A DNA stretch of 64,000 bases from Bacteroidota bacterium (GCA_026391775.1 JAPLDK010000033.1:19803-83802), one strand, 5' to 3'. Counted from the stretch's first letter, positions 24,224 to 42,758 are shown. The notes: generated from the sequence alone by a model not told the origin. Translations and numbers: made by a program.

Positions 24224-24358
24224 AGCAAAAACAATTTTGCCTGCTATACAAATGTAAGGAATAATTCATCAAAAAACACTATTCCGGAAAAGCAAATATG
24301 TGTAATTTAGCTGTATATTTGCATATTAAGGTACCTGATTATATTATATCAAAGGATC

Positions 24359-25111
24359 ATGTCTTCACAAAATGGAATTAATACATTCACAGCAATCATT
24401 GTTGATGATGAGCTTCATGGAAGGGAAAATCTTAAGAAGATCATTGAAACGTATTGCCCGGAGGTTGAAATCCTGGGCCTGGCCGAATCAGTTGTAAAGG
24501 CTAAGGAACTTGTAAGCGTTCTTAAGCCCGATGCCGTATTCCTTGATATCAATATGCCCGTACTCGACGGGTTTGACTTTCTTGCAGAGTACGATGAGCG
24601 GAATTTTTTGGTAGTATTTGTCAGTGCCCACGAGGAATTTGGGATCAATGCCGTGAAAGCCGGCGCAGCAGATTATATCCTAAAGCCCATAAATATCAAG
24701 GAGCTTAAACAGACTGTTAAAAAACTTCTGTTAATTCTGAATAAGTCCATAAAAGTTGAGACTTCCCATGATATTGAAAAACTAGTTATCCCTGCCTCTC
24801 ATGGATTTAATGTAATTGTTATTGATGAGGTAATACGTCTTGAAGCAGATGGATGTTATACAACCATTGTAATTAAAGGTGGAAAGAATACGGTTGTTTC
24901 CCGAACATTAAAAGATTTCGAGGATACCCTGCCAAAGGATAGATTTTTCAGAATTCACAAATCACATCTGATCAATCTGAAATATATTAAAGACTATTCA
25001 AACCTCAGCGGAAATCTTGTTACGATGACAGATGGCAGCAGTGTTGAATTATCCCGCAGGAAAGCACCGGAGTTTATACAAAAAATCAAATCAGTGCTGA
25101 AGTCAGTTTGA
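24359..25111 (+). CDS. LytTR-family response regulator
   Basis: Receiver (IIVDDELHGRENLKKII, VFLDINMPVLDGFDFL, DYILKPINIKELK) plus LytTR (VIRLEADGCYTTIVIKGGKNTVVSRTLKDFEDTLPKDRFFRIHKSHLINLKYI). Confidence 0.95.
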   Translation: MSSQNGINTFTAIIVDDELHGRENLKKIIETYCPEVEILGLAESVVKAKELVSVLKPDAVFLDINMPVLDGFDFLAEYDERNFLVVFVSAHEEFGINAVKAGAADYILKPINIKELKQTVKKLLLILNKSIKVETSHDIEKLVIPASHGFNVIVIDEVIRLEADGCYTTIVIKGGKNTVVSRTLKDFEDTLPKDRFFRIHKSHLINLKYIKDYSNLSGNLVTMTDGSSVELSRRKAPEFIQKIKSVLKSV

Positions 25112-25113
25112 AC

Positions 25114-28104
25114 ATGCCTTTAAAAAAACTTATACTTGCAATAATCCTCAGTCTCCCCTTTGCAGCACTTCATCCGCAAACACCTTCATATTATCATTAT
25201 ACCACAACAGACGGACTGGCTTCCTCAACGGTGTACAGTATAATCCAGGCCAGAGATGGTTTTATCTGGTTTGCCACGATAAATGGAATAAGTAAGTTTG
25301 ACGGAAAACGATTCACAACGTTCAGAACGAATGACGGTCTTAATTCGAATTCGATTATTTCTCTGGTGGAAGGACATAATGGTGAATTATATTTCGGGAA
25401 TTATGAAAAAGGAATAAATGTTTTAAGAAATGGGCGGATCGAAAACTATTGCAATGAAATTGACGGGAAAAGTTTTGCTACGTCTTATTTATTACTTGTC
25501 CCTGAGGGAAAAGATGAGCAAAAAATATTCGCTTATCGCACTCATGGGGTTATCAATTCTATCAGTGAAAAAAAACATGAGAGACTAAAAACTCATGGTA
25601 TCCAAACATCCCCCATTTATATAAACAGATTAGAGATATTAGCGAATAATGAAATTCTGGCTTTAACTCCAACCGGCCTGTACAGTTTCAAAAAGACCAG
25701 GTTAATAAAAATCCGGATTAAAAAGCTGCCTGACACAGAAGTTTTTTGTCTTGCCAATAGTTGCGACGGCAGCTATTATATTGGTACAAGGGGCATGATA
25801 TACAGAATAAAAAAAGATCAGGTAATTGGAAGGTATAAAATACCCTTAGCCGGTAACAATGATGTTTGCAATATGCTAATTGACAGGCATAATAACATCT
25901 GGTTTTCAGTAATGAATAAAGGGTTCTATTTAATTCCTCACGATTCGGAAAATATAAGTGATATCGGAGTTAAAATGGGGTTGGAGAATACTCTTGTAAC
26001 CAATTTCATGGAAGATAATGAAGGAAATATTTGGGTAAGTACCTATGGCAAAGGCGTGTTTTGTTTGAATAACCTGTATCTGAAAAGCTATAATGAAAAG
26101 GACGGATTGAGCAATAACAGTATTTATTCAATTGAGAAAGACAATTCGGGCAAATTACTGATAGGGACTTTTAACGGTCTGAATATTTTAGAAAACGGAA
26201 AGTTCAGCAATATCAAAAACAATTCGACAAAAACATTAACGGAATATATCTACAATATTAAAAAATCGGGTAATGAATTTTATATAAGCGGTGCATTTGG
26301 TGAAACCGGGGTTAAAAAAACTTCATACAAAGGTATAATCCTTAATCTTTTCGACCGGCCGTCATTCTGTAAAACATCTCATGATCTTTATTTGTTTGGA
26401 GGATCAGGGAATTACATTCTGGTTCAACAATCACTTGATTATAAACCCTCGGAAACATGCCATTTATATATCTTTGGAGATAGCCTGAATATAAATCGCA
26501 TTAACGAAATTTTTGAAGATTCGGAAAATAACATCTGGATAGCAACAGGCCTGGGTTTATGCAAAATCACCAAGGCATCTGACTCCTGTAAAGAATGGAA
26601 GAAATCATTTTTCCCCTCTGACCCGGTTCTGAATTCAAGAATCAATGCAATCTGCCAGGATAATAAAAAAAATATCTGGTTCGCTGGTGAAAAGGGAATA
26701 GCCAGCTATAACCCGGGAAATGATTCGGTTAAAACCTATACAAGTTTTAATGGGTATGATTTATCTTCAGCTACTTCTCTTATATCGGATAACAGGAACA
26801 GGATCTGGATCGGGAGTATGAATGGACTGTATCTGTTTGACAGGAGTTCTATCAGATATCTTAACCGTTTAACCGGGCTCCCTTCCGATGAAATCCTGTC
26901 ACTTTATTATGACAGCAAAATAAACTTTCTATATGTCGGGACCAGCAATGGAATTTCTTTCCTGGATGTAAATTTATTCGACAGCTATTCTCCTTCTCCA
27001 CCAAAGGTGAAAATTATCGACATTAAAGCTGGAGATTCGGTTTACACAAGCTATAATAATTTAGTTTTTGAGCCCGAACAACATGATGTATATATCGACT
27101 TCAAGGCATTAAACTTTTCTTCATCAGGCTCAGTAAAGTACGAATATAAATTAAATGATGATTGGACGGAAACCGGGTATGATTTCCTGAATTTCATCTC
27201 GTTGAAGAACGGACTTTACACTCTGCAGATCAGGGCTAAAATTCAAAATACCAGCTGGGGTGAACCATACATCCTCAGCTTTCGGATCCTGCCCCGCTTT
27301 GTTGAAACGATCTGGTTTGATCTCCTGATCATCGTAGTTTTTATACTCATTACTTTTTCTTTTGTAACATGGCGTCAGATAAGAAATAACGACAAAATGC
27401 GCAAGGAATTAGAACTGACTGAAAGGTTCAACAAGCTTGAGCATCAAGCCTTATCTGCAATGATGAACCCGCACTTTATTTCCAACTCACTTAATTCGGT
27501 GCAATATCTTATCAACAGCGGTAAATATGAAGAGGCCAATGATTACATTGCAATGATTGCCAAATTGATGCGGAAAAATCTTGATACAGCCGGAAGCGGA
27601 TTTATTCTCTTATCGGAAGAAATTATACGCCTGAAGCTTTATCTCGATCTTGAGAAGCTGAGATTTCAGGAGAGTTTCTCATATGAGATTATTACCGGGA
27701 CAGATGTTGATACAGGTTCAGTCATGATACCGAACATGATCATCCAGCCATTTATGGAAAATTCAATCTGGCACGGCATCATCAATTCAGGCAATAAAGG
27801 CCTTCTCACTGTTTCATTCACTTTTGAAGACGTGGAAATTGATACTGTTGTCAGCCGGTCATTGATTATTAAGGTTACAGATAATGGTATAGGAATTATA
27901 GAAGCAAAGAAGAATAAAAAGGAAGATCATATTTCAAAAGGGATACAAATTATTGAAGAGCGGCTCAGATTGTTGAGCACAAAAATGCAGCTTCCACAGC
28001 CCATCATGTTTGAAGATCTAAGCAGCCAGGATAACGATGCTCAGGGAACAGAAGTAATTATTTCCCTCCCTCCTCCGCTTTATAAAATTTCAATTCCGGG
28101 ATAA
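25114..28104 (+). CDS. Two-component regulator-propeller sensor kinase (LytS-type His_kinase)
   Basis: Multiple Reg_prop repeats (DNSGKLLIGTFNGLNIL, NNIWIATGLGLCKI), Y_Y_Y domain, TM, AMMNPHFISNSLNSVQYLINSGKYEEA. An ATG at 25114 is preferable to the TTG at 25108. Confidence 0.93.
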   Translation: MPLKKLILAIILSLPFAALHPQTPSYYHYTTTDGLASSTVYSIIQARDGFIWFATINGISKFDGKRFTTFRTNDGLNSNSIISLVEGHNGELYFGNYEKGINVLRNGRIENYCNEIDGKSFATSYLLLVPEGKDEQKIFAYRTHGVINSISEKKHERLKTHGIQTSPIYINRLEILANNEILALTPTGLYSFKKTRLIKIRIKKLPDTEVFCLANSCDGSYYIGTRGMIYRIKKDQVIGRYKIPLAGNNDVCNMLIDRHNNIWFSVMNKGFYLIPHDSENISDIGVKMGLENTLVTNFMEDNEGNIWVSTYGKGVFCLNNLYLKSYNEKDGLSNNSIYSIEKDNSGKLLIGTFNGLNILENGKFSNIKNNSTKTLTEYIYNIKKSGNEFYISGAFGETGVKKTSYKGIILNLFDRPSFCKTSHDLYLFGGSGNYILVQQSLDYKPSETCHLYIFGDSLNINRINEIFEDSENNIWIATGLGLCKITKASDSCKEWKKSFFPSDPVLNSRINAICQDNKKNIWFAGEKGIASYNPGNDSVKTYTSFNGYDLSSATSLISDNRNRIWIGSMNGLYLFDRSSIRYLNRLTGLPSDEILSLYYDSKINFLYVGTSNGISFLDVNLFDSYSPSPPKVKIIDIKAGDSVYTSYNNLVFEPEQHDVYIDFKALNFSSSGSVKYEYKLNDDWTETGYDFLNFISLKNGLYTLQIRAKIQNTSWGEPYILSFRILPRFVETIWFDLLIIVVFILITFSFVTWRQIRNNDKMRKELELTERFNKLEHQALSAMMNPHFISNSLNSVQYLINSGKYEEANDYIAMIAKLMRKNLDTAGSGFILLSEEIIRLKLYLDLEKLRFQESFSYEIITGTDVDTGSVMIPNMIIQPFMENSIWHGIINSGNKGLLTVSFTFEDVEIDTVVSRSLIIKVTDNGIGIIEAKKNKKEDHISKGIQIIEERLRLLSTKMQLPQPIMFEDLSSQDNDAQGTEVIISLPPPLYKISIPG

Positions 28105-28121
28105 GATACTCTGTCTTCTTT

Positions 28122-28184
28122 TACCAGTAAATCAGTTTTATATACCGTTAAATGAACAACACCTACCGCAGGTCTATCTGGTAT
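28122..28184 (+). promoter_or_regulatory. Array of three 21-bp-phased TACC(G/A) boxes (candidate LytTR operator)
   Basis: Units at 28122, 28143, 28164: TACCAGTAAATCAGTTTTATA / TACCGTTAAATGAACAACACC / TACCGCAGGTCTATCTGGTAT. Confidence 0.6.
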
Positions 28185-28239
28185 TGTGCTGGCATAGCAT
28201 TGTCAGTATTTTTGGCTAAAATTCAAGTATAATCTTGAA

Positions 28240-28839
28240 ATGAAGAACTTAATGATCATATTGACCTTAATGACATCATTCATTATTAGTTGTAATATGA
28301 CTTTTTTGAATCACAAAGACTATAAGATCAAGTTAAAGGATTTTGAATGGAATATAAAAATTGAAGGACAGTGCGGCGAGATCTACGTAAAAGGATCAAA
28401 CTTTATTTGCGGTAGAAACTATGACTCAACCTTCATCGAGATATCCTCAACCAATGGCGCTATTTTGGACACTTTACATCCTTATACGGTTGAGAAAGAA
28501 AGGGAGTGTACGATTCTTGACAAGGCAAGTGAATATAAAAACGGCTATTCATTACATAATGTTCCTGTTGACAAAGAGAAATATTTAAAAGTTACTTTGA
28601 AAGTATTCGACCGGCAATACCGTGGCGACGACGAAACATATTACCTGATCATTACCACCCTTACAAATCAAGAGTTTACAATTCTTTTCAGCCGTAAACA
28701 ATTTCCTTCGATCGATGATATTACCTATTTTAAGGACGGCAAGTTTATAATGACTTATAATGGGGAAGCTGGCTACGACCAGCATAAATATTCAATCCAT
28801 ATTGGATTGTTTGACCTGGAGAAAATAATCAAAGAATGA
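28240..28839 (+). CDS. Predicted lipoprotein, unknown function
   Basis: MKNLMIILTLMTSFIISCNMTF signal peptide with lipobox-like Cys; ATGA overlap with the next gene. Confidence 0.7.
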   Translation: MKNLMIILTLMTSFIISCNMTFLNHKDYKIKLKDFEWNIKIEGQCGEIYVKGSNFICGRNYDSTFIEISSTNGAILDTLHPYTVEKERECTILDKASEYKNGYSLHNVPVDKEKYLKVTLKVFDRQYRGDDETYYLIITTLTNQEFTILFSRKQFPSIDDITYFKDGKFIMTYNGEAGYDQHKYSIHIGLFDLEKIIKE

Positions 28840-30425
28840 GAAAAATAAAGATTGTACTGATCGTGCTGATGTTTGTCTTTTACGGATATGGTTTTTCTCA
28901 GTCTCAACAAACTGAACAAAACATGAAAACAAAAATTAGTCAGGAAGAGCGAATTGCAGTTCTTGAAAAGCGGATTGCAGATGCCGGGGATGATTTTGTC
29001 TCACTGACAACAGCGGAATATGATCTCCTGCTTTCACAAGCTGTCGGTGACATTGAAGGGTTTGAGCCGCTCGCTACGATAATGGGGGGAATTATGGTTG
29101 GTTATGGATTTCCCGACGGACCAAAAATTTATAAAACCGACATACAAACCATTTTCCCAAACATTCCCAACATTAGTGAGGGAGAAGTGTTTGTAATTTT
29201 TGATCATGTGAAAGGCAGCAATGGCCTTGATTATCTTGACCGGGAAAGCAATACTGAAATAAAGGCGGATAGCAGCTACCCGGAGAATGACTTTACTCAA
29301 CTTAAACTTTACATCAAGGCTGCCGGTTCGAAATCGTATTTGTTTGGAAGCCGGTATGTTAATTTACGGGATCCTTCTGACAGTATTACGGTTCGGGTTC
29401 TTGGAGCTCTCGGCGGAGAAGTCGTGCTTGGGGCAGTCTCAGGAAAAGTTGTCATGGAACTTCCGACAAACATTACCGGTCTTACATTAGCGAAAGAAGA
29501 TATCGGTATCGAGAAATCATTTGCCGGGGGATTGATCACCCTGAAAGAAATCACGGACGACAAGATTTCCTTTCAGTTTAAAGGTGATCGCAGGATGATA
29601 TATTCATGGAATGCATATGATAATGCAAATGCGATCCTTGAAATAAAGGATGTTCTTATAAAAGATGAACTTCATACCTTATATGCCGAGAACCCAAAGT
29701 CAATGAAAATTTACCAATCAGAAGTTGTCCGCAAGGAATATCCCTTTGCTTTCGGCAACGAGGATCAAACTGCCCCAAAGGAAGCTTCTCCTGCATGGCC
29801 GGAGAAGATTTCTCCTGCAACGCCAATTGTTTACCTCGAAAACAATGATCCGATTGCAATAGCCATTAAAGGACGGGCATTAACTGATCTCAAACAGTCA
29901 GTAAATAAAGCAGACCCGGAGTCTCCTGAAAATAAATTAATTGCCGCGCAAGTGGCAGCATGGCCCCTGGACAAGCAAAATCAATTGCATGAAGCATTTG
30001 AAAAATCAATCAATGATTATCCGGTTCAGACACATTTAAATGTTAAGATATTCAACGCCGGGACTTTTTTCATGGTTTTCAGTGATTTTGGAAAGATGGA
30101 TCAGAAAAAGATGGCAGAGGAGTATGATATTCGCGTTCAAAGCCTCGGCGGGGATAACTATACAGCCGAGTTTTGGGAAGATTCAGAAACACATGCTCTG
30201 GCTGTTGCAAATAACACGAATGTTGAAGCCATAGAAGTTGTGAAAGAACTTATCAGGTTATCCAGTGGTAAGGAGTCTGTTTCTGATGAAGATGGCATTA
30301 AAACCACTAAAATGGTGGCTTTGCGATATACAAAAATGATGGCTTTGCTTTATACCTTAGAAAAGGATGGCTCGGTTTCTTTTCACGACCCGTTTCAGCC
30401 GATGATGGATTTTATCAAACAATAA
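28836..30425 (+). CDS. Secreted protein of unknown function with a C-terminal domain shared with 33199..34266
   Basis: Signal peptide (MRKIKIVLIVLMFVFYGYGFSQ); C-terminal ~190 aa align by eye with the ORF at 33199. Confidence 0.75.
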   Translation: MRKIKIVLIVLMFVFYGYGFSQSQQTEQNMKTKISQEERIAVLEKRIADAGDDFVSLTTAEYDLLLSQAVGDIEGFEPLATIMGGIMVGYGFPDGPKIYKTDIQTIFPNIPNISEGEVFVIFDHVKGSNGLDYLDRESNTEIKADSSYPENDFTQLKLYIKAAGSKSYLFGSRYVNLRDPSDSITVRVLGALGGEVVLGAVSGKVVMELPTNITGLTLAKEDIGIEKSFAGGLITLKEITDDKISFQFKGDRRMIYSWNAYDNANAILEIKDVLIKDELHTLYAENPKSMKIYQSEVVRKEYPFAFGNEDQTAPKEASPAWPEKISPATPIVYLENNDPIAIAIKGRALTDLKQSVNKADPESPENKLIAAQVAAWPLDKQNQLHEAFEKSINDYPVQTHLNVKIFNAGTFFMVFSDFGKMDQKKMAEEYDIRVQSLGGDNYTAEFWEDSETHALAVANNTNVEAIEVVKELIRLSSGKESVSDEDGIKTTKMVALRYTKMMALLYTLEKDGSVSFHDPFQPMMDFIKQ

Positions 30426-30437
30426 TGAATCCCGGTC

Positions 30438-31661
30438 ATGACGATAAATTGGGTTGGGGGGATGTTGAGCGTACTTGTGCTGGGCTTGCTTTTGCTTGCC
30501 GGATTTATGTTGCAAAATTCTGTTCGTTTGCTGATTACTGGTAAAAGAGTTGAAGGCGTTGTCGTTGGAATGGATACGTCTTCACGCTTATCCGGCTCAT
30601 CAACAGATACTCCATTAAAATCGCCAATGGTTGAATTTTCAGTATCAACCGGAGAACGGATCAGGGTCAGCGGCCGGTCTTATTCCGAGTCACCATCAAT
30701 TCGTGTGGGAGACCTGGTCACCGTAGCATACAGCCCTTCAAATCCCCGGAATGCACAGTTGCTCCTATGGAGTGATTTCCCTCTCGTTCCGGCTGGTTTT
30801 GTCCTTGGCTTTATTGCTATTATATTATTAATATGGGTATCGGGTATACTCATATCGGGGAACTCGAAAATGGATGATCCCTTCCATCTTTTGCCTGCCC
30901 TTATTTCTCACTTTCGTCTGAATCCTGTTCGCTTTCCAGCCCTTTTTATCTTATCTATAGCTATTCCTGCGTGCGGACTCGGGACGTATTTAACTTTAAA
31001 GACAGCAATCGGGCTTCGTTCCGAGGGCATCAGGGCAACCGGCCATGTAGTCGGATCCCAAAGAGTGACGTCTTCCCTGAGCGATGGCAGTACAGGAAGC
31101 GGTGTGTTTCCTATGATCACTTTTAAAGATGCATCCGGCGCACCACACATAATCCGCAGATCGCTGGCTAAACCCTTGTCCCGGCTTAAACCAGGCGATG
31201 AGGTAGAGGTCATTTATCCTGCACGTCACCCTGAGCAGGGTGTTGTGAACACCTGGGACGAGTTTTGGCCGCCTCCTCTCTTTTTTGGATTTATGATGCT
31301 CGCGTTTATTATTATATTTCGTATTGTGTTCAGCAGAGCCAGCGTCACCTCAAACAGTAATCCGGGAAGTGAGAAGAAACTGAGGAAATCCGGCGTCCAG
31401 GCTGTTGCGACGGTGATTGAAGCGAATGTTAACACTCACTTACTCCATTATAGGATCGATAAGGAGACGGAAATGCCTGCGGCAAAGTCAAATGATTTTA
31501 TAACGCTTGAGATCAGTCTTTCGGATTGGGAACCATCGCAATCCGAAGCGTTAATTATTAAAGACAATCTTGCCCCGGCCTTCGAAAAGCTCATGACCGG
31601 GATCATGAACCTGCCCAAACCACTTCCCAAGCTTATTCAAGGCATCGATTGGAATGATTGA
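30438..31661 (+). CDS. Membrane protein with two DUF3592-like units
   Basis: Two copies of 'G.V...........P.(V/I)xFxxxxGxxxxxxxR....SxxxxGDxVxVxYxPxxPxxxxxx' flanked by TM helices. Confidence 0.65.
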   Translation: MTINWVGGMLSVLVLGLLLLAGFMLQNSVRLLITGKRVEGVVVGMDTSSRLSGSSTDTPLKSPMVEFSVSTGERIRVSGRSYSESPSIRVGDLVTVAYSPSNPRNAQLLLWSDFPLVPAGFVLGFIAIILLIWVSGILISGNSKMDDPFHLLPALISHFRLNPVRFPALFILSIAIPACGLGTYLTLKTAIGLRSEGIRATGHVVGSQRVTSSLSDGSTGSGVFPMITFKDASGAPHIIRRSLAKPLSRLKPGDEVEVIYPARHPEQGVVNTWDEFWPPPLFFGFMMLAFIIIFRIVFSRASVTSNSNPGSEKKLRKSGVQAVATVIEANVNTHLLHYRIDKETEMPAAKSNDFITLEISLSDWEPSQSEALIIKDNLAPAFEKLMTGIMNLPKPLPKLIQGIDWND

Positions 31662-31798
31662 AGGGAACTCGGAGTCAATCTGGGTCTCAATAAAGGATCT
31701 GAAGATGATAGTAAATTTTGGGAAAAGTTTCGGGTATTCAGAGCCAGGTATAAAAGCATAAAATAGAAAATTTTCAACGGCGACGATTTGAAATCAAT

Positions 31799-32131
31799 AT
31801 GGAAAAGATAATGTTGTTTTATTTGGAAAGACCGGATATTAAAATATCCATGCAAATCTATTTTACTGAGAAAGGACAACTATACTTTGATGGCTATGAT
31901 ATTGGTAAAACTGTTGATGATTTGTGGGGAGATTCTGATTATGAGTATGTTTATACAATAGAACCAGGGGAGGTAAATAAGTTCTACCAACTATTTAACA
32001 TACAAAACGGAGATAAATCTGTTCTTTTACGGGAAATTAAAAACCGCTTCAGTGTAAATGAAGCATATACATTGTTTGGGGAATTTATGCGTGTGAATAA
32101 TATCAGTTTCAGCAGGTTCTCATATACCTGA
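31799..32131 (+). CDS. Small hypothetical protein
   Basis: 110-aa ORF, MEKIMLFYLERPDIKISMQIYFTEKGQLYFDGYDIGKTVDDLWGDSDYEY...; plausible composition, no recognised domain. Confidence 0.5.
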   Translation: MEKIMLFYLERPDIKISMQIYFTEKGQLYFDGYDIGKTVDDLWGDSDYEYVYTIEPGEVNKFYQLFNIQNGDKSVLLREIKNRFSVNEAYTLFGEFMRVNNISFSRFSYT

Positions 32132-32144
32132 TTTTCACCTCCCC

Positions 32145-32207
32145 TGCCGTTTAACTGTTATTCCCTACCATTCAACAAATAACATATACTGCAAAACTGA
32201 TAAGTCA
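32145..32207 (+). promoter_or_regulatory. Second 21-bp-phased box array (candidate LytTR operator)
   Basis: Units at 32145, 32166, 32187: TGCCGTTTAACTGTTATTCCC / TACCATTCAACAAATAACATA / TACTGCAAAACTGATAAGTCA. Confidence 0.5.
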
Positions 32208-32621
32208 AAGCAACTTTACCAGTGGAATGAAATGATGCAATATACTACCACAGAAGGAACGCAGGGGATTTGCCCGGGTGGCTGGCATTTGCCGACTGAT
32301 GCCCACTGGTCGGGGCTAACGAGTTCCCTGGCCGGTCAAAGTGTTGCAGGTGGAAAAATGAAGGAGACCGGACATGCACATTGGACTGCTCCAAACACAG
32401 GAGCTTCCAACAGCAGCGGATTTAAAGCTCTTCCGGGCGGAGCCAAAAACTATATAGGCGGCACATTCGGAGATCTTACTAACATTGGTTTTTTCTGGTC
32501 ATCATCACAGAACTTCTCAACCTCCTCATGGGTCCGGCAGTTGGGTTATAATACCGCAGCCGCGGACCGCATAGATTATATGAAGACTTTTGGTTTTTCA
32601 GTCCGTTGCATCCGGAACTGA
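32208..32621 (+). pseudogene. 5'-truncated FISUMP (Fibrobacter succinogenes major paralogous) domain protein
   Basis: Frame reads KQLYQWNEMMQYTTTEGTQGICPGGWHLPTDAHWSGL...GFFWSSSQNFSTSSWVRQLGYNTAAADRIDYMKTFGFSVRCIRN; no signal peptide and the N-terminal part of the domain is missing. Confidence 0.65.
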
Positions 32622-32703
32622 CCTTCCCTAAATAACCATACACAGATTCAAACCAGAACATATTCGTTCCAGCAGCACTTTTTACCATTAACAGCATAAA
32701 ACC

Positions 32704-33211
32704 ATGAAGAAAAAAAACATAATTCTTATAGCATTGTTCCTTTCTTGTTACTGTTTGGGAGCACAAGCCCAATGGCTTCAGGATACCAGGCTAACCAATG
32801 ATAATTCAGGTTCCTGGACTTACGGCAATACCCCGTCTGATAACAATGTGTGGTGTGTTGCTGCGACCGGTAGCGATGTGCATGTGGTTTGGTACGATTA
32901 CCGGAATGATTTGGGCATGGGAGAGATATACTATAAAAAATCGGCAGATGGAGGTGTGAATTGGGGATCAGATATCAGACTTACCAACAACCATCGGCTA
33001 TGTAATACCCCAGACAAGTTCAGTAAAAATAAGTGTTTATAATTTCCTCGGTGAGGAGATACGGGTATTGGTCAATGAAGAAAAAGCTCAGGGAACTTAT
33101 GAATTGGTTTTCTATGCAAAAGGAATGGCGAACGAAACTTATTACTTTACAATCAGGACTGGAAATTTCGTCCAAAGTAAAAAGATGATAATATTAAGAT
33201 GGACCGTATGA
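32704..33211 (+). pseudogene. Internally deleted BNR-type secreted protein: N-terminus joined out of frame to a FlgD-like C-terminus
   Basis: Frame 1: MKKKNIILIALFLSCYCLGAQAQWLQDTRLTND...GEIYYKKSADGGVNWGSDIRLTNN. From 32993, in the +1 frame: IGYVIPQTSSVKISVYNFLGEEIRVLVNEEKAQGTYELVFYAKGMANETYYFTIRTGNFVQSKKMIILRWTV*. Confidence 0.8.
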
Positions 33212-34266
33212 AAAACCTGGTTATTGACCATATTATAATACGACAACAAACAATCTGCTTCATAATCCTTTTGCTTCTTATCAGTAGTCTGACGAACCAG
33301 GGGCAAACAATCGTGAAGAAAGACTTCCTTGTTGCGTTCAATGATACTATCAAAGGTGGCTATGGTTATAAAGATCATAACGGGACAGTGGTTATCCCGA
33401 TAGGAAAATACCCTATGGTTTTCTCCGACACCTTCAGGACTTATGCAATTGTGGCCAGCCCTGAAAAAGGTTTTGTTACCATTAACCGCCAGGAACAAGT
33501 TTTATATGAAGTATTTCCTTATGACAATGGCCCTGATTATATATCTGACGGGCTTTTCAGGATAATAGCAAACAAGAAAATCGGGTTTGCCGATTCAGCA
33601 ACGGGTAAGGTTATGATTATTCCTCAATTCGATTGCGCCCGGCCTTTTGAAAACGGCCTGGCTGAAGTCAGCACAAACTGTAAGTCCCAGGTATACGGAG
33701 ATAATGCTACATGGATAAGCGACAACTGGTACTATATCGACAAAACAGGAAGGAAAATTGACAAGCCCGATACGAATATGAAGCAAAAAGAATCTGTTGC
33801 CGCCCCGGACTCCGTAAAGCCGGTATACCTGGACCATAATGATACAATATATATAACAATTTATAAACGTGTGGCAGTGGACCTCAGACAAAAAGTCGAC
33901 ACGGGATCAATTGAGAATAAACTCTTTGCGGCTAAAATGAGTGCATTGACTCCCGAACAGCAAAATCAATTGGAGCCAATATTCGTAAAATCAATAACCG
34001 AGTATGCAGCTAAGACTCATTTCGAGGCATGGACACTTATGATGAATTTTAACAACTTGGCGAGAAAAGATGTAAAAGACATTGCAGATAAGTATGAAAT
34101 CCGTGTTCAAAACCTGGGTGACGAATGCTACGCTGCGGAATTTTGGGAAGCCCTTGAGCAGGGGGGCTACAATAAAGTAATGGCTTTGCTTTACGTCAGG
34201 GAAAAGGACGGCTCGTTTACGTTTCACGACCCATACCAGGCGGTGATTGATTTTTTAAACCAGTAA
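33199..34266 (+). CDS. WG-repeat-like protein with the same C-terminal domain as 28836..30425
   Basis: Signal-anchor, WG-type repeat (FADSATGKVMIIPQFDCARPFENGLAEVST...WYYIDKTGRKI), C-terminal domain ending KEKDGSFTFHDPYQAVIDFLNQ. Confidence 0.75.
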   Translation: MDRMKNLVIDHIIIRQQTICFIILLLLISSLTNQGQTIVKKDFLVAFNDTIKGGYGYKDHNGTVVIPIGKYPMVFSDTFRTYAIVASPEKGFVTINRQEQVLYEVFPYDNGPDYISDGLFRIIANKKIGFADSATGKVMIIPQFDCARPFENGLAEVSTNCKSQVYGDNATWISDNWYYIDKTGRKIDKPDTNMKQKESVAAPDSVKPVYLDHNDTIYITIYKRVAVDLRQKVDTGSIENKLFAAKMSALTPEQQNQLEPIFVKSITEYAAKTHFEAWTLMMNFNNLARKDVKDIADKYEIRVQNLGDECYAAEFWEALEQGGYNKVMALLYVREKDGSFTFHDPYQAVIDFLNQ

Positions 34267-34341
34267 CCCTGCCATAGGCATTCCAGATCATTGTCAAGGG
34301 AGCCCCTACCCTGTTTTAAGGGTTTATTCTATTTCTCAGCA

Positions 34342-34404
34342 CGCCGTTGATCAAAGAATTCATACCGTTAAAAAAACAACATATACCGATTACAGGTCCT
34401 CTAT
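34342..34404 (+). promoter_or_regulatory. Third 21-bp-phased box array (candidate LytTR operator)
   Basis: Units at 34342, 34363, 34384: CGCCGTTGATCAAAGAATTCA / TACCGTTAAAAAAACAACATA / TACCGATTACAGGTCCTCTAT. Confidence 0.55.
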
Positions 34405-34435
34405 TGCAACAACATCGTTTTACAAATATGTTTGT

Positions 34436-34723
34436 GTGTTTCTCCAAAAAAGCAAATTGAAAAAATTAGAAAGGTTTAAGAGTTTTTTTACAAAAAAGCA
34501 TTCTGAACCATTGCCTCTTTTAATTATAAAGAAGAATGCCGATGATGCCAATGTGAAAGAATACAATTCCATTGAGGAAGCTATCGAAGACCTGGAAATG
34601 GATCCTAATGTTTCGGCTGATAAAATAGAAAAACTACGATCTGCTTTTAAAAGTCTGAAGAACAAAAGTGCAATCCGGATCAGGAATGGAGAACTTATAA
34701 ATAGTGAGAAATCAAAGAAATAA
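34436..34723 (+). CDS. Small charged hypothetical protein
   Basis: 95-aa ORF from GTG, Lys/Glu-rich, no recognised domain. Confidence 0.4.
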   Translation: MFLQKSKLKKLERFKSFFTKKHSEPLPLLIIKKNADDANVKEYNSIEEAIEDLEMDPNVSADKIEKLRSAFKSLKNKSAIRIRNGELINSEKSKK

Positions 34724-34776
34724 AGAGTCACTGCGAATTAACTGCCAAACATTATAAACTTTTATTTGAAACAAGT

Positions 34777-35055
34777 ATGAAAAGTATAATTACAATATTC
34801 GGAGTGTTATTGATGGCTTCAGGAGTTTTTGCCCAGGCGCCGGAGAAACTGAGTTACCAGTCGGTGATCAGGAACTGATAAATTCGAAACCCTGAGTTAT
34901 CGTCTTTATGATTTTACGGGAGGCAATTACTAAACCAAAAAGTCAGCAGTACAGAAACAAGCATACCAATGGGTAGCCTTTCTTCTGCCATTTATTATTT
35001 GAAAGTAATCGATAATTCAACAGAATTAAAAACTTTCAAAATCATTAAAAATTAA
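34777..35055 (+). pseudogene. Internally deleted secreted protein (signal peptide plus T9SS sorting-domain remnant)
   Basis: MKSIITIFGVLLMASGVFAQAPEKLSYQSVIRN*, then FETLSYRLYDFTG with a frameshift to QLLNQKVSSTETSIPMGSLSSAIYYLKVIDNSTELKTFKIIKN*. Confidence 0.75.
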
Positions 35056-35059
35056 AACC

Positions 35060-38000
35060 ATGAAAAAAATACTTATCCTCATTGCAGTTTTGTTTACAGC
35101 CTGTTTTACCCAGGCACAGGTGAATGGATTTACACTTACCGATCCTTCTTATCCTGCAACACACAATTTAGGTACTTCCTTCCCATTAAATATATCGTTT
35201 AATTGGACAACTGCTACCAAAAGTGATACTGTAAAAATTCAGTACAATGCTGCTTTAGTAAGTTATGATCCTAGTTGTTCAACGGCTTTACCCGCTTGCA
35301 TGATCATAACGAACAGTGGCCCCCAGCTTACTATCACCATGAGCAATTTATCGGCCTGCACAAACACAGGCGCCATAAGTTTTAATGTGTGTTTTAGATT
35401 CAACTGCCCCGATTCTTGTACAGGTGTAACAAAACCGGCAATTTTTACAGGCGTAAATACAGATAATTTAGGTACAACTCAAAATGCTAACTGCACCGCA
35501 AATGGTATTTTAAATAACCTTTTTTCACTTACCCATAGTTTTTATTCGTTCAACATAATGACTGCGGAAGTGACTTTTAGGGTATGGTTTAATAATCCGG
35601 ATTGTTTTTATATTAAAAATCCAAGTTTTGACATTGCACTTTCCCCTTCATTAGGTCTGATAACATCGGTTTATGGTGCCAATTATACTTATACACTTTC
35701 AGGAAATGTAATTACACCTAATATAACTGCCTTTAACCAAAATTCGAATGATTATTTCTTTTATGTGGTAAAGCTTGACTCGTGTAATACAGGGCGTGGG
35801 CAAACGCTTACAAGCAATGTAACTTTTAAAGGAACAAACTGCAGTGTAGCAAACAGTATTATAAAAGGGCCTGTGCCTGCAGCCTATACAATACCAGCGG
35901 TGGCTGTTGCCAATTCAGGTATTTCTGTTTCAAATATGACTGCGACATCATCATCTTTTTCTTATACTATTAACAATACAGGCAATACACCGGTAAATTT
36001 AATAGCTACCAATTTTTTACCACTGGTGCATTTAAAAAGCTTATCTGATCCAACTCCATCCAATACAGTATTACAAAACACGACCCAAGCCGGACTTGGT
36101 GGCAGTATTACATATTATGATTGTACTCTTTCACCCACAGGCCCTTTTCCTTTAACAGGCAACGGAGCTACCAATGGAAGTGCTCCGGCAACCAATACAA
36201 CAAAGTTTAATCATACTGTAAATAATTTATTACCCGGACAATCGGTTAGTCTGTCTCTATATTACGACTTAACTTCATCATGCAATGGAGCCGCAGGAAA
36301 TCCGCCTTATAAAGACAGTTTGGCCATTTCCTTTGATTGTGACGCCGGCCCGGTGGGTGGCTGTGTACCTTGTGACGGGGGTGGAAATGCAAGCGGGGTT
36401 GTTATTTACAATCCGCAACCGGATATAGGTTGTACACAAAATCAATATATTCCGGGTTGCAAAAACGTTGGAGATACCATCGGTTTATGTTATGAATTTA
36501 AAAACTCCGGTGACGCTGCTTTAATTGGTGGGATATTCAACGTGCAATTACCGGTATGGTTACAGGCCGATATTTCCAGCATAGTTTATACCGGCTTTTC
36601 TCCTGATCCTACCATTATACCTTCAACAAATCTCAAATTTAATTTACCAAATATACCTTCCGGCATCAGTACTTATAAAATTTGTTTTAAAGCTGTTGTT
36701 CAAAGTGGTGCAGTTGGCGGATCAAATGGTTATTGGTCTATTGTTTCCGGAGGTAATTTAATTAATCAGCAATTAGTTTGTTATACCTCTCTTAATATTT
36801 GTGCATTTGCAGCAATAGGTATAGATAAAAAAGTAAAAGGGAGTTTGAACGGAAGCTATGCGAATAGCGGCACTGGTAAACCCAATACACCTGTGGATTA
36901 TGAAATTACAATACGTAATACGGGTACCATTGCTGTTGACAGTTTGGTTGTAATTGACAGAATTCCGGCAACAGGGAACCTGACTATTTTAGGCAGCCCG
37001 GGCTCAATAGCTGTAAGCGACCAGTTTAATATGCAGATGCTTACTGCACCCATAAACAGTAATTATACTGCTTCATATACCGCTACTCAAAATATATGTA
37101 CAACTTGGCCAGGTACCGGCACTCCCTGCAATGCCGGCGTATGGGGTGCATCAGTTGCAGATGGAGGAGTTAAATTTGATTTTAATCCAACTTACACTTT
37201 AGCACCCGGGGGCACTTATACGTTTACATTCAGAACACAAATACCGGCCGGAACTGCCGATGGATTGATTGATTGTAACACAGCCGGGTTTATTGCAAAA
37301 TCAACCACAGGCGGATATACAATTAACCCGGTAGAAACAAATCCGGTTTGTATCCAGGTGGTTAATGATACTTGTAACCATTTATGTAATTCTGATTTCG
37401 AGGATAAGCAACTCGTGGCCCCCGGCAGCCAGGGCATTTTTAACGAAGACTCCGTCTCATGCTGGAAAACCACAGCTACTGACCATATGATTGAAGTCTG
37501 GGGTAACGGTTTCAATGGCGTACCTTCTTATTCGGGTAATCAGTTCATTGAATTAAATGCCAATATGGTGGGAACACTTTATCAAACATTTACAGCCACC
37601 CCCGGAACTACTGTTACTATTTCTTTTGCTCACCGGGGGCGTGTAGGGTATACAAACCAGATGAGTGTAGCAATAGAACCAGCTCCTATTGGCAGTGGGG
37701 CAGCTATCGTTTTAGAAACAGACACTGCCAGTATTTCCGCCTGGACAATGCACACTGTAACCTATACATTTCCCGGTTCCGGTTCTTCCTATGTGCTGAG
37801 TTTTATTTCTCTCCCTGTGGGGGGTACTTCAGCAGGCGGGAATTTCCTGGATGCGATTTCTGTTGATTGTCATACAGATATCTGCAGCAAAACAGATGCA
37901 AGAATAACCAGACTGCCCCAGGGTGAATGTTGTTTTCAGGTTGATATCTCCAACACATACCGGCCGGATTATTTTACCGGAATTTCTATTACTTCCGATA

Positions 38001-39616
38001 ATTTGACCCTGGCTAACGTTTCATCCGATAATCCCTGGAGTACTATCACTTATCAATCTCCTACCCAGGTGGTTTTTACGAAAAATCCTCCTTATAACGG
38101 CATTCCTTTGGATACAGCTGGATTTCAGACTCTGGGTGTTATTTGTTTTGCGGGTAGCGGCGTTAACCACATTAATGTTGATTTCATTGGCAATCCTCCC
38201 AAGTATGACACGGTTTGCAGGAAAACACTGACTCTTGAAGGTTGCAGTATTCCGGTCGACACCAACTGTGTTGCCGTTCTTGATCTGAAAGCCGAATGTG
38301 ATACAGGCGCTGTTAAAATGAAGTTCAGAATAAGAAACAATTCCAGTTTTACAGTCCGGGGATTAACGCTGTATTCTCAAACCCCCGATGTAAGCCCTTC
38401 TCCCAAATTTATAGGGATCCCGGATCTGTTACCAGGTCAAACCTCTGCCTATATTGAAACCGCACTGATGGTTTCCAATAATGCAACCAATGCATGCTTT
38501 TTCTTTGCAGCATGCGATCAGTATACAAAACCGGGGCCCACAGGTCCATTTCCAAGCTGGTGTTGCATGGACAGTATACGCTATTGTGTCGATATTCCAC
38601 ACTGCGATCCATGTGATGGTATAACGTTTACAGCAACAAAGAATGATCCCGTCAAATGTTGTTATAATCTTACACTTAAAAGTAATTACTACAACGCCAA
38701 CATAGAATACCTTGAGTTTACCGGACTTGGAGGCACCCAGTTTGCGATCTTCACCGGATGGAATATAATCCCTCCAGTGAGCAGCAGCCATATTAAGATC
38801 AAAGCGCCGGGAGGAGGTATCCCACCGGGGACATACCCTGATTTTGCTTCCTTCTGCCTTACCGGCACTTCAACTTCACCTCATATGATATTGATCAACA
38901 GTATCGATGCAAAGGGAGTTCACTTATGCACCGATACGCTGAAGTTTGATTCCTGTCAAATGGTTACCCCGACCTGCGCCAATATTATCAATGATTCGCT
39001 TTACTGTTCAGGGGGGAAGATCAAATATACATTTTACGTGAAAAACAATGCACCTTTTACGCTGTACCAGATTGACTACAGGACAACCGATATAAGTGTG
39101 GTCCTGGATTCAAATTACACTCAGCCTCACCCTCCGATTGCCCCTGGAGTCACCGGAGGGCCCTTTACGGTTACCATTGTTTCGGCAGGTAAAACCCTTG
39201 ACAGATTTTGCATGTATCTCACAGGCCATAATGGAATTTACGATTCCATAACAGGTCAGGCCGCAACTGAGTGCTGCACCGACTCTCTGGGGGGAATCTG
39301 CCTGCCTATGATCAAATGCGGAGGTACTGATTCTACCTGCTGCGCTTTTGAGAATATGACGATTCCCAACGGGATTACTCCTAACGAAGATGGAAAAAAT
39401 GATGCATTTATAATTCTGAATTCAACATGTTGCAGTTATATCTCCATAAAAGTATTTAACCGATGGGGCAATATGGAATATCAAAACGATGATTACAAAA
39501 ACGACTGGAAGGGAGTAAATAATGGCGGCCAGAAGTTAGTGCAGGGAACCTATTTCGTTCTGCTTGAGCTTCCGAACGGTAATAAAAAAGGTATCTATGT
39601 TGATATCCGATATTAA
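35060..39616 (+). CDS. Giant surface protein with DUF11-like repeats and T9SS type B (gliding-motility-associated) C-terminal domain
   Basis: Signal peptide, Cys/Ser/Thr-rich repeats with DUF11 (VDYEITIRNTGTIAVDSLVVIDRIPATG), C-terminal IPNGITPNEDGKNDAFIILN...ISIKVFNRWGNMEYQNDDYKNDWKGVNNGGQKLVQGTYFVLLELPNG. Confidence 0.88.
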   Translation: MKKILILIAVLFTACFTQAQVNGFTLTDPSYPATHNLGTSFPLNISFNWTTATKSDTVKIQYNAALVSYDPSCSTALPACMIITNSGPQLTITMSNLSACTNTGAISFNVCFRFNCPDSCTGVTKPAIFTGVNTDNLGTTQNANCTANGILNNLFSLTHSFYSFNIMTAEVTFRVWFNNPDCFYIKNPSFDIALSPSLGLITSVYGANYTYTLSGNVITPNITAFNQNSNDYFFYVVKLDSCNTGRGQTLTSNVTFKGTNCSVANSIIKGPVPAAYTIPAVAVANSGISVSNMTATSSSFSYTINNTGNTPVNLIATNFLPLVHLKSLSDPTPSNTVLQNTTQAGLGGSITYYDCTLSPTGPFPLTGNGATNGSAPATNTTKFNHTVNNLLPGQSVSLSLYYDLTSSCNGAAGNPPYKDSLAISFDCDAGPVGGCVPCDGGGNASGVVIYNPQPDIGCTQNQYIPGCKNVGDTIGLCYEFKNSGDAALIGGIFNVQLPVWLQADISSIVYTGFSPDPTIIPSTNLKFNLPNIPSGISTYKICFKAVVQSGAVGGSNGYWSIVSGGNLINQQLVCYTSLNICAFAAIGIDKKVKGSLNGSYANSGTGKPNTPVDYEITIRNTGTIAVDSLVVIDRIPATGNLTILGSPGSIAVSDQFNMQMLTAPINSNYTASYTATQNICTTWPGTGTPCNAGVWGASVADGGVKFDFNPTYTLAPGGTYTFTFRTQIPAGTADGLIDCNTAGFIAKSTTGGYTINPVETNPVCIQVVNDTCNHLCNSDFEDKQLVAPGSQGIFNEDSVSCWKTTATDHMIEVWGNGFNGVPSYSGNQFIELNANMVGTLYQTFTATPGTTVTISFAHRGRVGYTNQMSVAIEPAPIGSGAAIVLETDTASISAWTMHTVTYTFPGSGSSYVLSFISLPVGGTSAGGNFLDAISVDCHTDICSKTDARITRLPQGECCFQVDISNTYRPDYFTGISITSDNLTLANVSSDNPWSTITYQSPTQVVFTKNPPYNGIPLDTAGFQTLGVICFAGSGVNHINVDFIGNPPKYDTVCRKTLTLEGCSIPVDTNCVAVLDLKAECDTGAVKMKFRIRNNSSFTVRGLTLYSQTPDVSPSPKFIGIPDLLPGQTSAYIETALMVSNNATNACFFFAACDQYTKPGPTGPFPSWCCMDSIRYCVDIPHCDPCDGITFTATKNDPVKCCYNLTLKSNYYNANIEYLEFTGLGGTQFAIFTGWNIIPPVSSSHIKIKAPGGGIPPGTYPDFASFCLTGTSTSPHMILINSIDAKGVHLCTDTLKFDSCQMVTPTCANIINDSLYCSGGKIKYTFYVKNNAPFTLYQIDYRTTDISVVLDSNYTQPHPPIAPGVTGGPFTVTIVSAGKTLDRFCMYLTGHNGIYDSITGQAATECCTDSLGGICLPMIKCGGTDSTCCAFENMTIPNGITPNEDGKNDAFIILNSTCCSYISIKVFNRWGNMEYQNDDYKNDWKGVNNGGQKLVQGTYFVLLELPNGNKKGIYVDIRY

Positions 39617-39634
39617 ATAATTAAATTCTGAAAA

Positions 39635-40540
39635 ATGAAAAAGTTTATCATACTGGCAATAATGTGTTCTTCACTGTTTGCGAAAGCCCAGCAGGAACCT
39701 CAGTATACACTGAACCAGTTTAACAGTAACCTGGAGATTAACCCGGCATATGCAGGTGCAAATGACGATGCAAGTCTCAGTCTCAGGTACCGCAAACAAT
39801 GGGTAGGTTTTACCGGCTCCCCATCTACCCTCTGTTTTAATGGCGAAAGTAAAATCATTAAACAGCGGCTTGCATTAGGTCTTACCATTGTTGGTGACTG
39901 GATTGGAATAACACAAAGTACGTATGCCGATCTTAGCGTAGCATCACACCTGCGCCTGGGCGCAAAGGGGACCCTCTCCGTCGGGATTAAGCTTGGCGTG
40001 CAGTTCCTGAAGTCTGATTTTTCGAAGTTGTCGAATGTCGACCTCACCGACCCTCTCTATAATACCAATGCAAGTGTATTCATACCCTATGCAGGGTTCG
40101 GGGCGCTTTTCTATACACGGAAATTATATATCGGGTTTGCTGTTCCACAGGTAGTGTCGTTTGAAAATGTAGCTCCCCAATCCAAGATCATCAAACCTCA
40201 CTTTTTTCTGTATGGGGGTTACAGGGTTATTCTTAACAGCGATTTTGAACTCCGGCCTGCCCTTTTGTGCAAATATGTGACTGCGGCGCCTTTTGAAGCC
40301 GATATTGCCATTGATGCATGGTTCAAAGGTATGGTTGGTGTGGGGGTTTCGTACCGCACTTCTGATGCAGTAAATTTTATGATCAAAGGAAGACTCGGAA
40401 ATTTTTATCTCGGTTATTCTTACGATATGACAGTCTCCGGCCTGAGACCATACAATTCAGGTACACATGAGATCTATCTTGGATTTGAATTCGGTAAAAA
40501 AGGCAATCCCGACAGGAAACAGAATAACCGGTATTTTTAA
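39635..40540 (+). CDS. PorP/SprF-family type IX secretion outer membrane protein
   Basis: QQEPQYTLNQFNSNLEINPAYAGANDDASLSLRYRKQWVGFTGSPSTLCFNGES; immediately downstream of the type B cargo. Confidence 0.93.
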   Translation: MKKFIILAIMCSSLFAKAQQEPQYTLNQFNSNLEINPAYAGANDDASLSLRYRKQWVGFTGSPSTLCFNGESKIIKQRLALGLTIVGDWIGITQSTYADLSVASHLRLGAKGTLSVGIKLGVQFLKSDFSKLSNVDLTDPLYNTNASVFIPYAGFGALFYTRKLYIGFAVPQVVSFENVAPQSKIIKPHFFLYGGYRVILNSDFELRPALLCKYVTAAPFEADIAIDAWFKGMVGVGVSYRTSDAVNFMIKGRLGNFYLGYSYDMTVSGLRPYNSGTHEIYLGFEFGKKGNPDRKQNNRYF

Positions 40541-40548
40541 TAATCACA

Positions 40549-42723
40549 GTGATGAAAAAATTGATAATAATACTGTTCTGCTTGTGTAACATTACTTTGT
40601 TTGCACAGAAATCACAGGCAGATAAGAAGTTCAAATTATATGAGTACAGCGATGCAATCCTGTTGTACAAAGAATACCTGGAAAAATCTCCCGCAGATTA
40701 TGAAGCAACCAGGAACCTTGCTTTATCATACAAGTACACCAATAATATTACAGGTTCAATAGAAACCTACCAATCCTTAGTAAAATTAAAACAAGCAGTT
40801 CCTGATGACTGGTACGAACTGGTCCAGCTTTTAAGGATAAACGGAAATTTGGCAGACGCAAAGCTGTATGCTTTACAATATCAACAGAAAAACACAGGGG
40901 AAAAGGCTCAAACCCTGCTCAAATCAATTGATATGTATGACGAGCTGATGTCGGGAAAGGACAACTATAATGTTATTAATAAAACTGAACAATACCACCA
41001 GTCTGTTTTTTCTCCTGTTTATTACCAGGGAGGGCTTATGTTAACAGCTGAAAATCCGGAAGGTTCCAAAAACGAATGGACAGGCAGGGGTTATACAAAG
41101 TTATTCCTTACAGATTTCAATTGCAGTAAACTGGTTCCCGTTGCGTCTGAACTCATGTCTAAATATAATGATGGCCCTGCAGCTCTGTCAAGCGATGGAA
41201 TGACAATGTACTTTACAACCATTAATAAAAAATCAATACAGGAACAGGATGTAAATACCAGTAAACTGCAAATCTCGGCAGCTGTACTCAAAGATAACAG
41301 ATGGCAACCGGCAGAATTGTTCAGATTCAATAACAACAGTTATAATGTCGCCCACCCAACATTAAGAAGTGACGGGAATATGTTGGTATTTACCTCCGAC
41401 AAACCCGGAGGGCATGGAGGAATGGATTTGTATTACTGTTCAAAGCAACCCGACAACACATGGTCTGAACCAATCAATATTACCATATTAAACACATCCG
41501 GGAATGAAATTTTTCCTTCCTTCGATGCCTCCGGAAATCTGTATTATTCATCCAATGGCTTGCCTGGCTTAGGTGGACTGGATCTGTTTATTTCGAAAAA
41601 CGAAGGCAGCAGCTTTACAGCCCCCGCAAATCTGAAAGCCCCTATCAATTCCAGTTATGATGATTTTTCATTAGCGACAAACAATAATCTGGAAAGTGGT
41701 TTTATATCTACAAACAGGTTTGGCTCTCCCGAAATAGATGATATAGCATACTTTTCAAAAAAAGCAAAGGAGGTTCTGAAACCTGCCGTTAAACCTATTG
41801 TAAAAATAACCGTGTTGGATAAATATACCGCCACCCCATTGCCCTATGTCTCAGTTACTGTTAAGGACGACAAAAAGAATATCGTTTTCCAGGGGATGAC
41901 CGATCCAAATGGCATATTGATGGTAGAAGAACTGCCGGCCGATAATTACAGGGTCCAGGGCATACTGAATGAGGTAACAACTACTATTGCATCTATAGGG
42001 AAAGAAGAATTTACCAAAGAGTTAATAGAAAAGACCATCACACACAATGATCCGAGATTTACCTTATCGGGGATTGCCACAAACGCCAGCAACGACCAGC
42101 CTGTTGCAGGGGTAACGGTAACATGTGAAAATACGGTCCTGAATAAAACCAATAGCAGGATAACAACTGCCGATGGAAAATTCTTCTTTCAGTTGGAACA
42201 GGCTAGTGATTTTAAAGTACATGGTGAACTGCAGGGATGGTTGAGCAGTGAAGCGTTCTATGCAACAACTAAAGGACTGGACCGGAGCAAGGACCTATAT
42301 GTAAAGATAAAACTTAGCATGCAGCAACCTGCTGCAAACGAGGTCATCAGGTTAGATAAAATCTACTATGATTATGATAAATGTGATATTAAACCCAGAG
42401 CGGCGGAGGAATTGGACAGGCTTGTCAAGCTTATGAATGATTTTCCAGATATGAAAATAGAATTATCCTCCCATACCGACAGCAGGGGTAGCAATGCATA
42501 TAATCAGAAGCTTTCCCAATGCAGGGCTGATGCAGCTGTAAAATACATTCTGGGAAAAGGAATATTAAAAAGCCGGATTACTGCAGTTGGTTATGGTGAA
42601 TCCAGGCTTGTAAATGGCTGTTCCGATGGTGTGAATTGCACTGAAAAACAACATCAGGAAAACAGGAGAACGGAATTCAAAATTGTCTCTTGTCCTTCAT
42701 GCCCTGCGATTGAGAAACAGTAA
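40549..42723 (+). CDS. PorE-like OmpA-family protein (TPR - PD40 - carboxypeptidase regulatory-like - OmpA)
   Basis: TPR N-terminus, TSDKPGGHGGMDLYYC PD40-like blades, C-terminal IELSSHTDSRGSNAYNQKLSQCRADAAVKYILGKGI OmpA peptidoglycan-binding motif. Confidence 0.92.
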   Translation: MMKKLIIILFCLCNITLFAQKSQADKKFKLYEYSDAILLYKEYLEKSPADYEATRNLALSYKYTNNITGSIETYQSLVKLKQAVPDDWYELVQLLRINGNLADAKLYALQYQQKNTGEKAQTLLKSIDMYDELMSGKDNYNVINKTEQYHQSVFSPVYYQGGLMLTAENPEGSKNEWTGRGYTKLFLTDFNCSKLVPVASELMSKYNDGPAALSSDGMTMYFTTINKKSIQEQDVNTSKLQISAAVLKDNRWQPAELFRFNNNSYNVAHPTLRSDGNMLVFTSDKPGGHGGMDLYYCSKQPDNTWSEPINITILNTSGNEIFPSFDASGNLYYSSNGLPGLGGLDLFISKNEGSSFTAPANLKAPINSSYDDFSLATNNNLESGFISTNRFGSPEIDDIAYFSKKAKEVLKPAVKPIVKITVLDKYTATPLPYVSVTVKDDKKNIVFQGMTDPNGILMVEELPADNYRVQGILNEVTTTIASIGKEEFTKELIEKTITHNDPRFTLSGIATNASNDQPVAGVTVTCENTVLNKTNSRITTADGKFFFQLEQASDFKVHGELQGWLSSEAFYATTKGLDRSKDLYVKIKLSMQQPAANEVIRLDKIYYDYDKCDIKPRAAEELDRLVKLMNDFPDMKIELSSHTDSRGSNAYNQKLSQCRADAAVKYILGKGILKSRITAVGYGESRLVNGCSDGVNCTEKQHQENRRTEFKIVSCPSCPAIEKQ

Positions 42724-42758
42724 ACATTGTCACTATAGAAGCTTGGACATAACCAGCT

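Follow-up and report, generated by a model that had tools for sequence, protein, structure and literature searches.

Triple-box arrays next to a propeller kinase/LytTR gene pair of a Bacteroidota bacterium as candidate operator-promoter cassettes for surface-protein genes

Which DNA sites does a propeller sensor kinase with a LytTR partner act upon? Such Reg_prop kinase pairs are common in Bacteroidota, and no DNA target of any of them was found in the literature, most subscription journals being outside the search. The window analysed here, a stretch of 64,000 nucleotides from a Bacteroidota bacterium (GCA_026391775.1, JAPLDK010000033.1:19803-83802), encodes one such pair and contains, at three places nearby, arrays of three short boxes which an earlier note on this DNA had proposed as the sites of the neighbouring regulator. 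Judged from sequence comparisons, the arrays are very probably operator-promoter cassettes of the pair 24359-28104, through which it would activate the operon behind array A3 and the block of genes behind array A1.

24359..25111, plus strand: response regulator (RR) of the LytTR type, proposed to bind the boxes (Pfam Response_reg 2e-19, LytTR 1.5e-19)
25108..28104, plus strand: propeller sensor histidine kinase (Pfam Reg_prop, Y_Y_Y, His_kinase)
28122..28173, plus strand: array A1, boxes TACCAGTAAA, TACCGTTAAA and TACCGCAGGT at 28122, 28143 and 28164 (sequence; orthologous arrays in relatives)
32145..32196, plus strand: array A2, boxes TGCCGTTTAA, TACCATTCAA and TACTGCAAAA at 32145, 32166 and 32187 (sequence; match to the model R1, described below)
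34342..34393, plus strand: array A3, boxes CGCCGTTGAT, TACCGTTAAA and TACCGATTAC at 34342, 34363 and 34384 (sequence; identity to arrays of the relatives G002 and G004)

All nine boxes claimed earlier were found in place at a spacing of 21 bp, made up in every array of a 9-bp box and a 12-bp gap without insertions. The recurrence is thus real, while the claim that the same box stands there three times was too strong: the boxes are degenerate, only the middle one is near the consensus, and the first and third are weaker, although the CC of box 3 is invariant. When triples were scored against TACCGTTnAA over the 64-kb window (maximum 27, cut-off at least 21), A1, A2 and A3 were the sole ones at 21-bp spacing; none reached 21/27 at the other spacings between 11 and 39 bp, and none appeared in 200 dinucleotide shuffles. 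A 26-bp two-box pattern singled out A1, A2 and A3 in the whole 3.19-Mb genome with 0, 0 and 2 mismatches, the rest of the genome yielding three matches, all with 3 mismatches and on a level with the controls (five matches for the reversed pattern, two chance matches for the pattern with 20-bp spacing). The strict form TACCRTT-N14-TACCRTT has no match in the window because the boxes are degenerate. A palindrome of box 3 and a following GGT, spotted in the relative G005, is not kept in the other arrays when these are inspected by eye. A riboswitch or leader RNA was also considered and rejected, as no Rfam family matched within 24000-43000 and the inferred transcription start comes only after the boxes. 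All three arrays exist as described, yet they are not equivalent: A1 and A3 are copies of one rigid cassette of about 92 bp, and A2 is decayed.

The second half of this cassette is a promoter. The consensus for the Bacteroidota sigma factor is TTTG at -33 and TANNTTTG at -7, with T at -12 (PMC6847099), and at a fixed distance behind box 3 both A1 and A3 carry the corresponding features, T(T)TG at -33 and TAnnTTTG at -7.

28182..28186, plus strand: A1 -33 element, TATTG (array alignment)
28207..28214, plus strand: A1 -7 element, TATTTTTG, of the form TAnnTTTG (consensus from PMC6847099)
34402..34406, plus strand: A3 -33 element, TATTG (array alignment)
34427..34434, plus strand: A3 -7 element, TATGTTTG (consensus from PMC6847099)
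34457..34723, plus strand: p34457, conserved 88-aa protein with a TTG start, first gene of the predicted target operon (orthologs in 24 loci)

The TTG of the -33 element, 62-64 nt from the start of box 1 and right behind box 3, is invariant in the 26 arrays compared, and so is the TA..TT of the -7 element. Many distant arrays have G at the third position of the latter, deviating from the revised consensus, and in many the whole element is weak (for example TAGATTCG). From the -7 positions, transcription would be expected to start near 28219 for A1 and near 34439 for A3, which would place the box starts at -97, -76 and -55 and leave about 10 bp between the end of box 3 and the TTG. The GTG at 34436, previously taken as a start codon, would then lie upstream of the transcription start; since the distance from box 1 to the start of p34457 orthologs is 114-116 nt with few exceptions, the right start is the TTG at 34457.

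Our reading is supported by the conservation of this layout together with the regulator. Orthologs of the kinase, 59-77% identical, occur in eight relatives, and in seven of them (not in G004) an orthologous array follows directly after the kinase stop; in G002 the post-kinase copy is a box-1 remnant only, with a full array about 0.5 kb beyond. An alignment of the nine close arrays spans 95 columns and is free of gaps. R1, a sequence-only model built from these nine, gave strong matches (E <1e-11) only in the nine genomes with a close kinase ortholog, the window's included, out of 46 examined, and no strong match in the other 37 (best 1e-3). Three strong matches fall outside the training set, among them that of G004, where the array fronts p34457 on a different contig from the kinase. 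The p34457 gene was found in eight of these nine genomes, the exception being G006, where the contig ends, and in no genome beyond them.

An RR profile scan with one genome per species extended the sample to 80 loci, of which about two dozen, labelled Bacteroidales, Lutibacter, Prolixibacteraceae, Ignavibacteria and others, bear R1 arrays at E <=2e-4. The RR is at least 53% identical in all of these, and no array was found by R1 among the loci of the 80 with RRs of 28-44% identity. Bacteroidia, Flavobacteriia and Ignavibacteria all have the cassette in ungapped form, and with few exceptions it is flanked by an orthologous propeller kinase on one side and a conserved small gene, p34457 in the window, on the other; this answers the earlier suggestion to look for arrays next to orthologous LytTR pairs in relatives. 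The 21 arrays not used for R1 have the same ungapped layout; their information content peaks at the three TACCG, at TTG and at TA..TT, and drops between. A1 is nearest to arrays fronting orthologs of the 28240 gene (72% identical), and A3 to those fronting p34457 orthologs (83% in G002, 77% in G004), each being closest to its own type; the duplication therefore predates these species, and both copies were retained. This history was drawn from pairwise identities, the array DNA tree having the G006 row offset by one base. G007 and G018 have only one array here, with the kinase directly before it and p34457 and the adhesin operon directly after; this gene order is probably the ancestral one.

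The association was also approached from the other side, from DNA alone. R2, a deeper array model run without protein information on an even, phylum-wide sample of 398 genomes, called arrays (E 1e-9 or better) in 17 genomes besides the window's; the training loci of R2 had been picked by their RR, and the model may favour operators of this subfamily over those of unrelated LytTR proteins. All 17 genomes encode an RR 65-79% identical to the window's, and RR orthologs are present with every strong array; none of 20 array-less control genomes, which came from the window's order or class and were not family-matched to the 17, has an RR above 42% identity. Most R2 arrays stand behind the kinase, and second arrays front p34457 or relatives of the accessory genes 28836 and 30438. 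In G004, G434, the second G486 array and the loci L096 and L108 the array stays with its target gene where the kinase is unlinked, which argues against mere hitch-hiking. As to the idea of a scattered local regulon, A1, A3 and the decayed A2 all sit at one locus in this genome, which speaks against it here, but arrays distant from the regulator in G343, G486 and G434 bear it out elsewhere. In one intergenic region of G343, about 10 kb from the regulator, two arrays (L199/L195, G343:C44:116875-117213) stand back to back in divergent orientation.

The box itself resembles a LytTR site. The published LytTR binding consensus is [TA][AC][CA]GTTN[AG][TG], and when it was slid over the 26 arrays the top three of 86 offsets were box 2 (8.5/9), box 1 (7.2) and box 3 (6.4), with a mean of 4.4 over all offsets; box 3 by itself is weak. 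The arrays also have the build of LytTR promoters, that is direct repeats of about 9 bp, 10-13 bp apart and just upstream of the -35/-33 element, in a genome with a co-inherited LytTR-domain regulator. Orthologous conservation, reciprocal co-occurrence and the consensus match together strongly support the earlier proposal that the boxes are sites of the neighbouring LytTR regulator, three to each operator.

We propose that a signal from outside would reach the propeller kinase and lead to phosphorylation of the LytTR regulator, which would then bind the three boxes side by side, two helical turns apart. With the gene-proximal box just upstream of -33, the bound regulator could recruit RNA polymerase to the weak TTG/TAnnTTTG promoter. 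A3 would drive p34457 and then probably the genes for an adhesin of the type IX secretion system (T9SS), PorP/SprF and OmpA; A1, the old duplicate, would drive the inserted accessory block from 28240, and A2 would be a dead copy.

Several observations weigh against this proposal. Box 3 is without the GTT core in most arrays, and activation from upstream of -33, which we consider likely, is deduced from position only. Common descent underlies both the presence of arrays and the identity of the RRs, and 17 out of 17 does not mean 17 independent events. The region upstream of the RR gene contains no array to the eye, and no autoregulation through these boxes is therefore expected; a promoter-like TATATTTG lies there at 24312-24319, and several relatives have a similar TGTATnTTTG, again with the boxes absent. 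The genome encodes seven LytTR proteins, and the neighbouring RR is assigned to the boxes through co-inheritance. This number would suit another factor, either a different LytTR protein or a member of another DNA-binding family, that binds the boxes while the linkage to the pair is synteny only. Such an arrangement is quite improbable, however, given that kinase-detached arrays are still confined to genomes with this RR, that genomes with other LytTR regulators and no close ortholog have no array, and that LytTR sites fit the box sequence and spacing best.

The same regulator might, on the other hand, repress the promoter from the same boxes in the manner of the LytTR repressor CoxC, whose operator likewise has three repeats, spaced by 18-21 bp (PMC11347149). 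The CoxC sites overlap -35, whereas most LytTR activators bind just upstream of the -35 region (PMC11347149), and box 3, with about 10 bp between its end and the TTG, has this usual activator position; activation is therefore preferred, and the weak -7 of many arrays fits a promoter in need of help. Repression is accordingly an unlikely mode, if one with a precedent. A purely passive nature of the arrays, as repeats that arose by duplication of intergenic DNA or at recombination junctions and have no part in regulation, would agree with the fluid gene content between the copies and with the decayed copies, A2 and the G002 remnant, joined to FISUMP fragments. But the duplication of A1 and A3 is old and boxes and promoter are kept in both, and ungapped conservation across classes is unexpected for neutral DNA, which makes a passive origin hardly credible.

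The decay of A2, once taken for a working operator, is evident from its structure: a search for TTG and TAnnTTTG found neither a -33 nor a -7 element, and the R1 match (model positions 2-52, 22.6 bits) covers the operator half only. The ATG at 32232, formerly proposed as a start, is internal to a truncated FISUMP gene; direct reading shows the coding sequence running on upstream of it, which marks A2 as a truncated copy. The box-1 remnant of G002, with a similar FISUMP fragment behind, is comparable. FISUMP fragments are thus attached to decayed arrays in two species (32232-32621 here, 13769-13903 in L090) and are apparently leftovers of former cargo. The remaining genes of the locus, under the assignment to the LytTR pair, fall into the block between A1 and A3 and the operon behind A3.

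28240..28839, plus strand: first gene behind A1, 199 aa, lipoprotein-like, opening the accessory block 28240-32131
28836..30425, plus strand: accessory protein, 529 aa, with a C-terminal domain common to 33199-34266
30438..31661, plus strand: accessory DUF3592 protein (PF12158 1.4e-14)
32232..32621, plus strand: truncated FISUMP (Fib_succ_major) fragment behind A2, without its first third (PF09603 positions 56-187 of 187 only)
33199..34266, plus strand: accessory protein combining a WG repeat with the C-terminal domain found in 28836-30425 (PF14903 4.9e-9)
35060..39616, plus strand: T9SS-secreted surface protein, 1518 aa, CHU_C signal (PF13585 4e-20)
39635..40540, plus strand: PorP/SprF outer-membrane protein (PF11751 7e-64)
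40549..42723, plus strand: OmpA-family protein with PD40 repeats (PF00691 7.9e-18)

The product of 28240..28839 has no Pfam match, and its lipoprotein nature was judged from the N-terminus by eye; orthologs stand behind the array in G002, G003, G005, G006 and G012. Relatives of 28836..30425 occur behind arrays in G367, G494 and G343, and a homolog of 30438..31661 behind an array in G343. The gene 33199-34266 looks like a fusion of WG repeats to the C-terminal domain of 28836-30425, a domain that has no Pfam name; in G002, G012 and G018 the OmpA gene is followed by WG relatives. An open reading frame at 32704-33042, with repeated matches in locus L085 of G002, resembles a truncated secreted protein, and 33000-33210 encodes in another frame a C-terminal tail like that of T9SS substrates; the two are probably one broken gene. 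Gene spacing suggests a target operon p34457, adhesin, PorP/SprF, OmpA. Its first product, the most constant array target across classes, has no Pfam match, and its AlphaFold2 model (mean pLDDT, the predicted local distance difference test, of 65) resembled no fold in the PDB at a cut-off of E 0.001, so that the structure points to no function; p34457 is possibly a feedback or assembly factor.

The genes after p34457 vary by locus: CHU_C adhesin, PorP/SprF and OmpA in some, in others a FISUMP/PKD protein, a protein with a Por_Secre_tail signal, a Peptidase_S74 protein, or 1.6-kaa (thousand amino acid) proteins without Pfam matches. In a quick kinase tree, where the names of metagenome-assembled genomes are loose, labels of Bacteroidota and of Ignavibacteriota are intermingled on starred branches, and the regulator-only tree is too weak to settle the matter; transfer between classes is a suggestion for which the tree evidence is weak. 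The varied cargo and the mixed tree hint at a regulatory head that is portable and whose surface cargo can be exchanged. It is conceivable, and we put it forward tentatively, that such a head, made up of the RR, the propeller kinase, the triple-box promoter and p34457, moved between classes of Bacteroidota and Ignavibacteria and drives interchangeable surface-protein genes, promoter copies letting new cargo blocks join the same signal. For one propeller-kinase/LytTR family these results provide a precise predicted operator and promoter and a conserved first target gene, p34457. They predict that an outside signal is directly linked to a surface protein secreted by the type IX system and to its PorP/SprF partner, and the cassette signature locates regulator and target in unannotated genomes.

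No description of this kinase/RR pair or of its operator was found in the literature searched. Among the closest known systems is E. coli BtsS/BtsR (YehU/YehT), with its site upstream of yjiY/btsT, which likewise joins a kinase and a LytTR regulator to boxes at a 21-bp period: the YehT/BtsR oligo contains ACCGCTTA-N13-ACCACTCA, 21 bp from start to start (PMC4847170), and box 1 of G005, TACCGCTTAA, nearly matches its letters. The described BtsR site has two boxes and ours three, however, the regulators are 29% identical, and sensor type and target differ. The canonical LytTR pairs, for which AgrA, ComE, VirR and PlnC may serve as examples, also use repeats of about 9 bp with gaps of 10-13 bp upstream of -35, but these are two in number and belong to other bacteria and other sensors. 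The operators of RcoM1 and CoxC do have three direct repeats by the promoter, spaced by about two helical turns (PMC11347149), contrary to the earlier view that triple boxes set this locus apart from the usual LytTR systems; triple operators as such are thus already known, although RcoM1 and CoxC are one-component sensors of carbon monoxide with a TTCnnGCA box, and CoxC represses. In its function a parallel is the two-component control of T9SS-related genes by PorY-PorX-SigP in Porphyromonas (PMC4800418), which works through an extracytoplasmic function (ECF) sigma factor on the secretion machine, whereas the LytTR pair studied here would directly control an operon for a secreted substrate and PorP/SprF. 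The cassette is a new member of this known class, marked by unusually broad conservation and by the changing genes that follow it as cargo.

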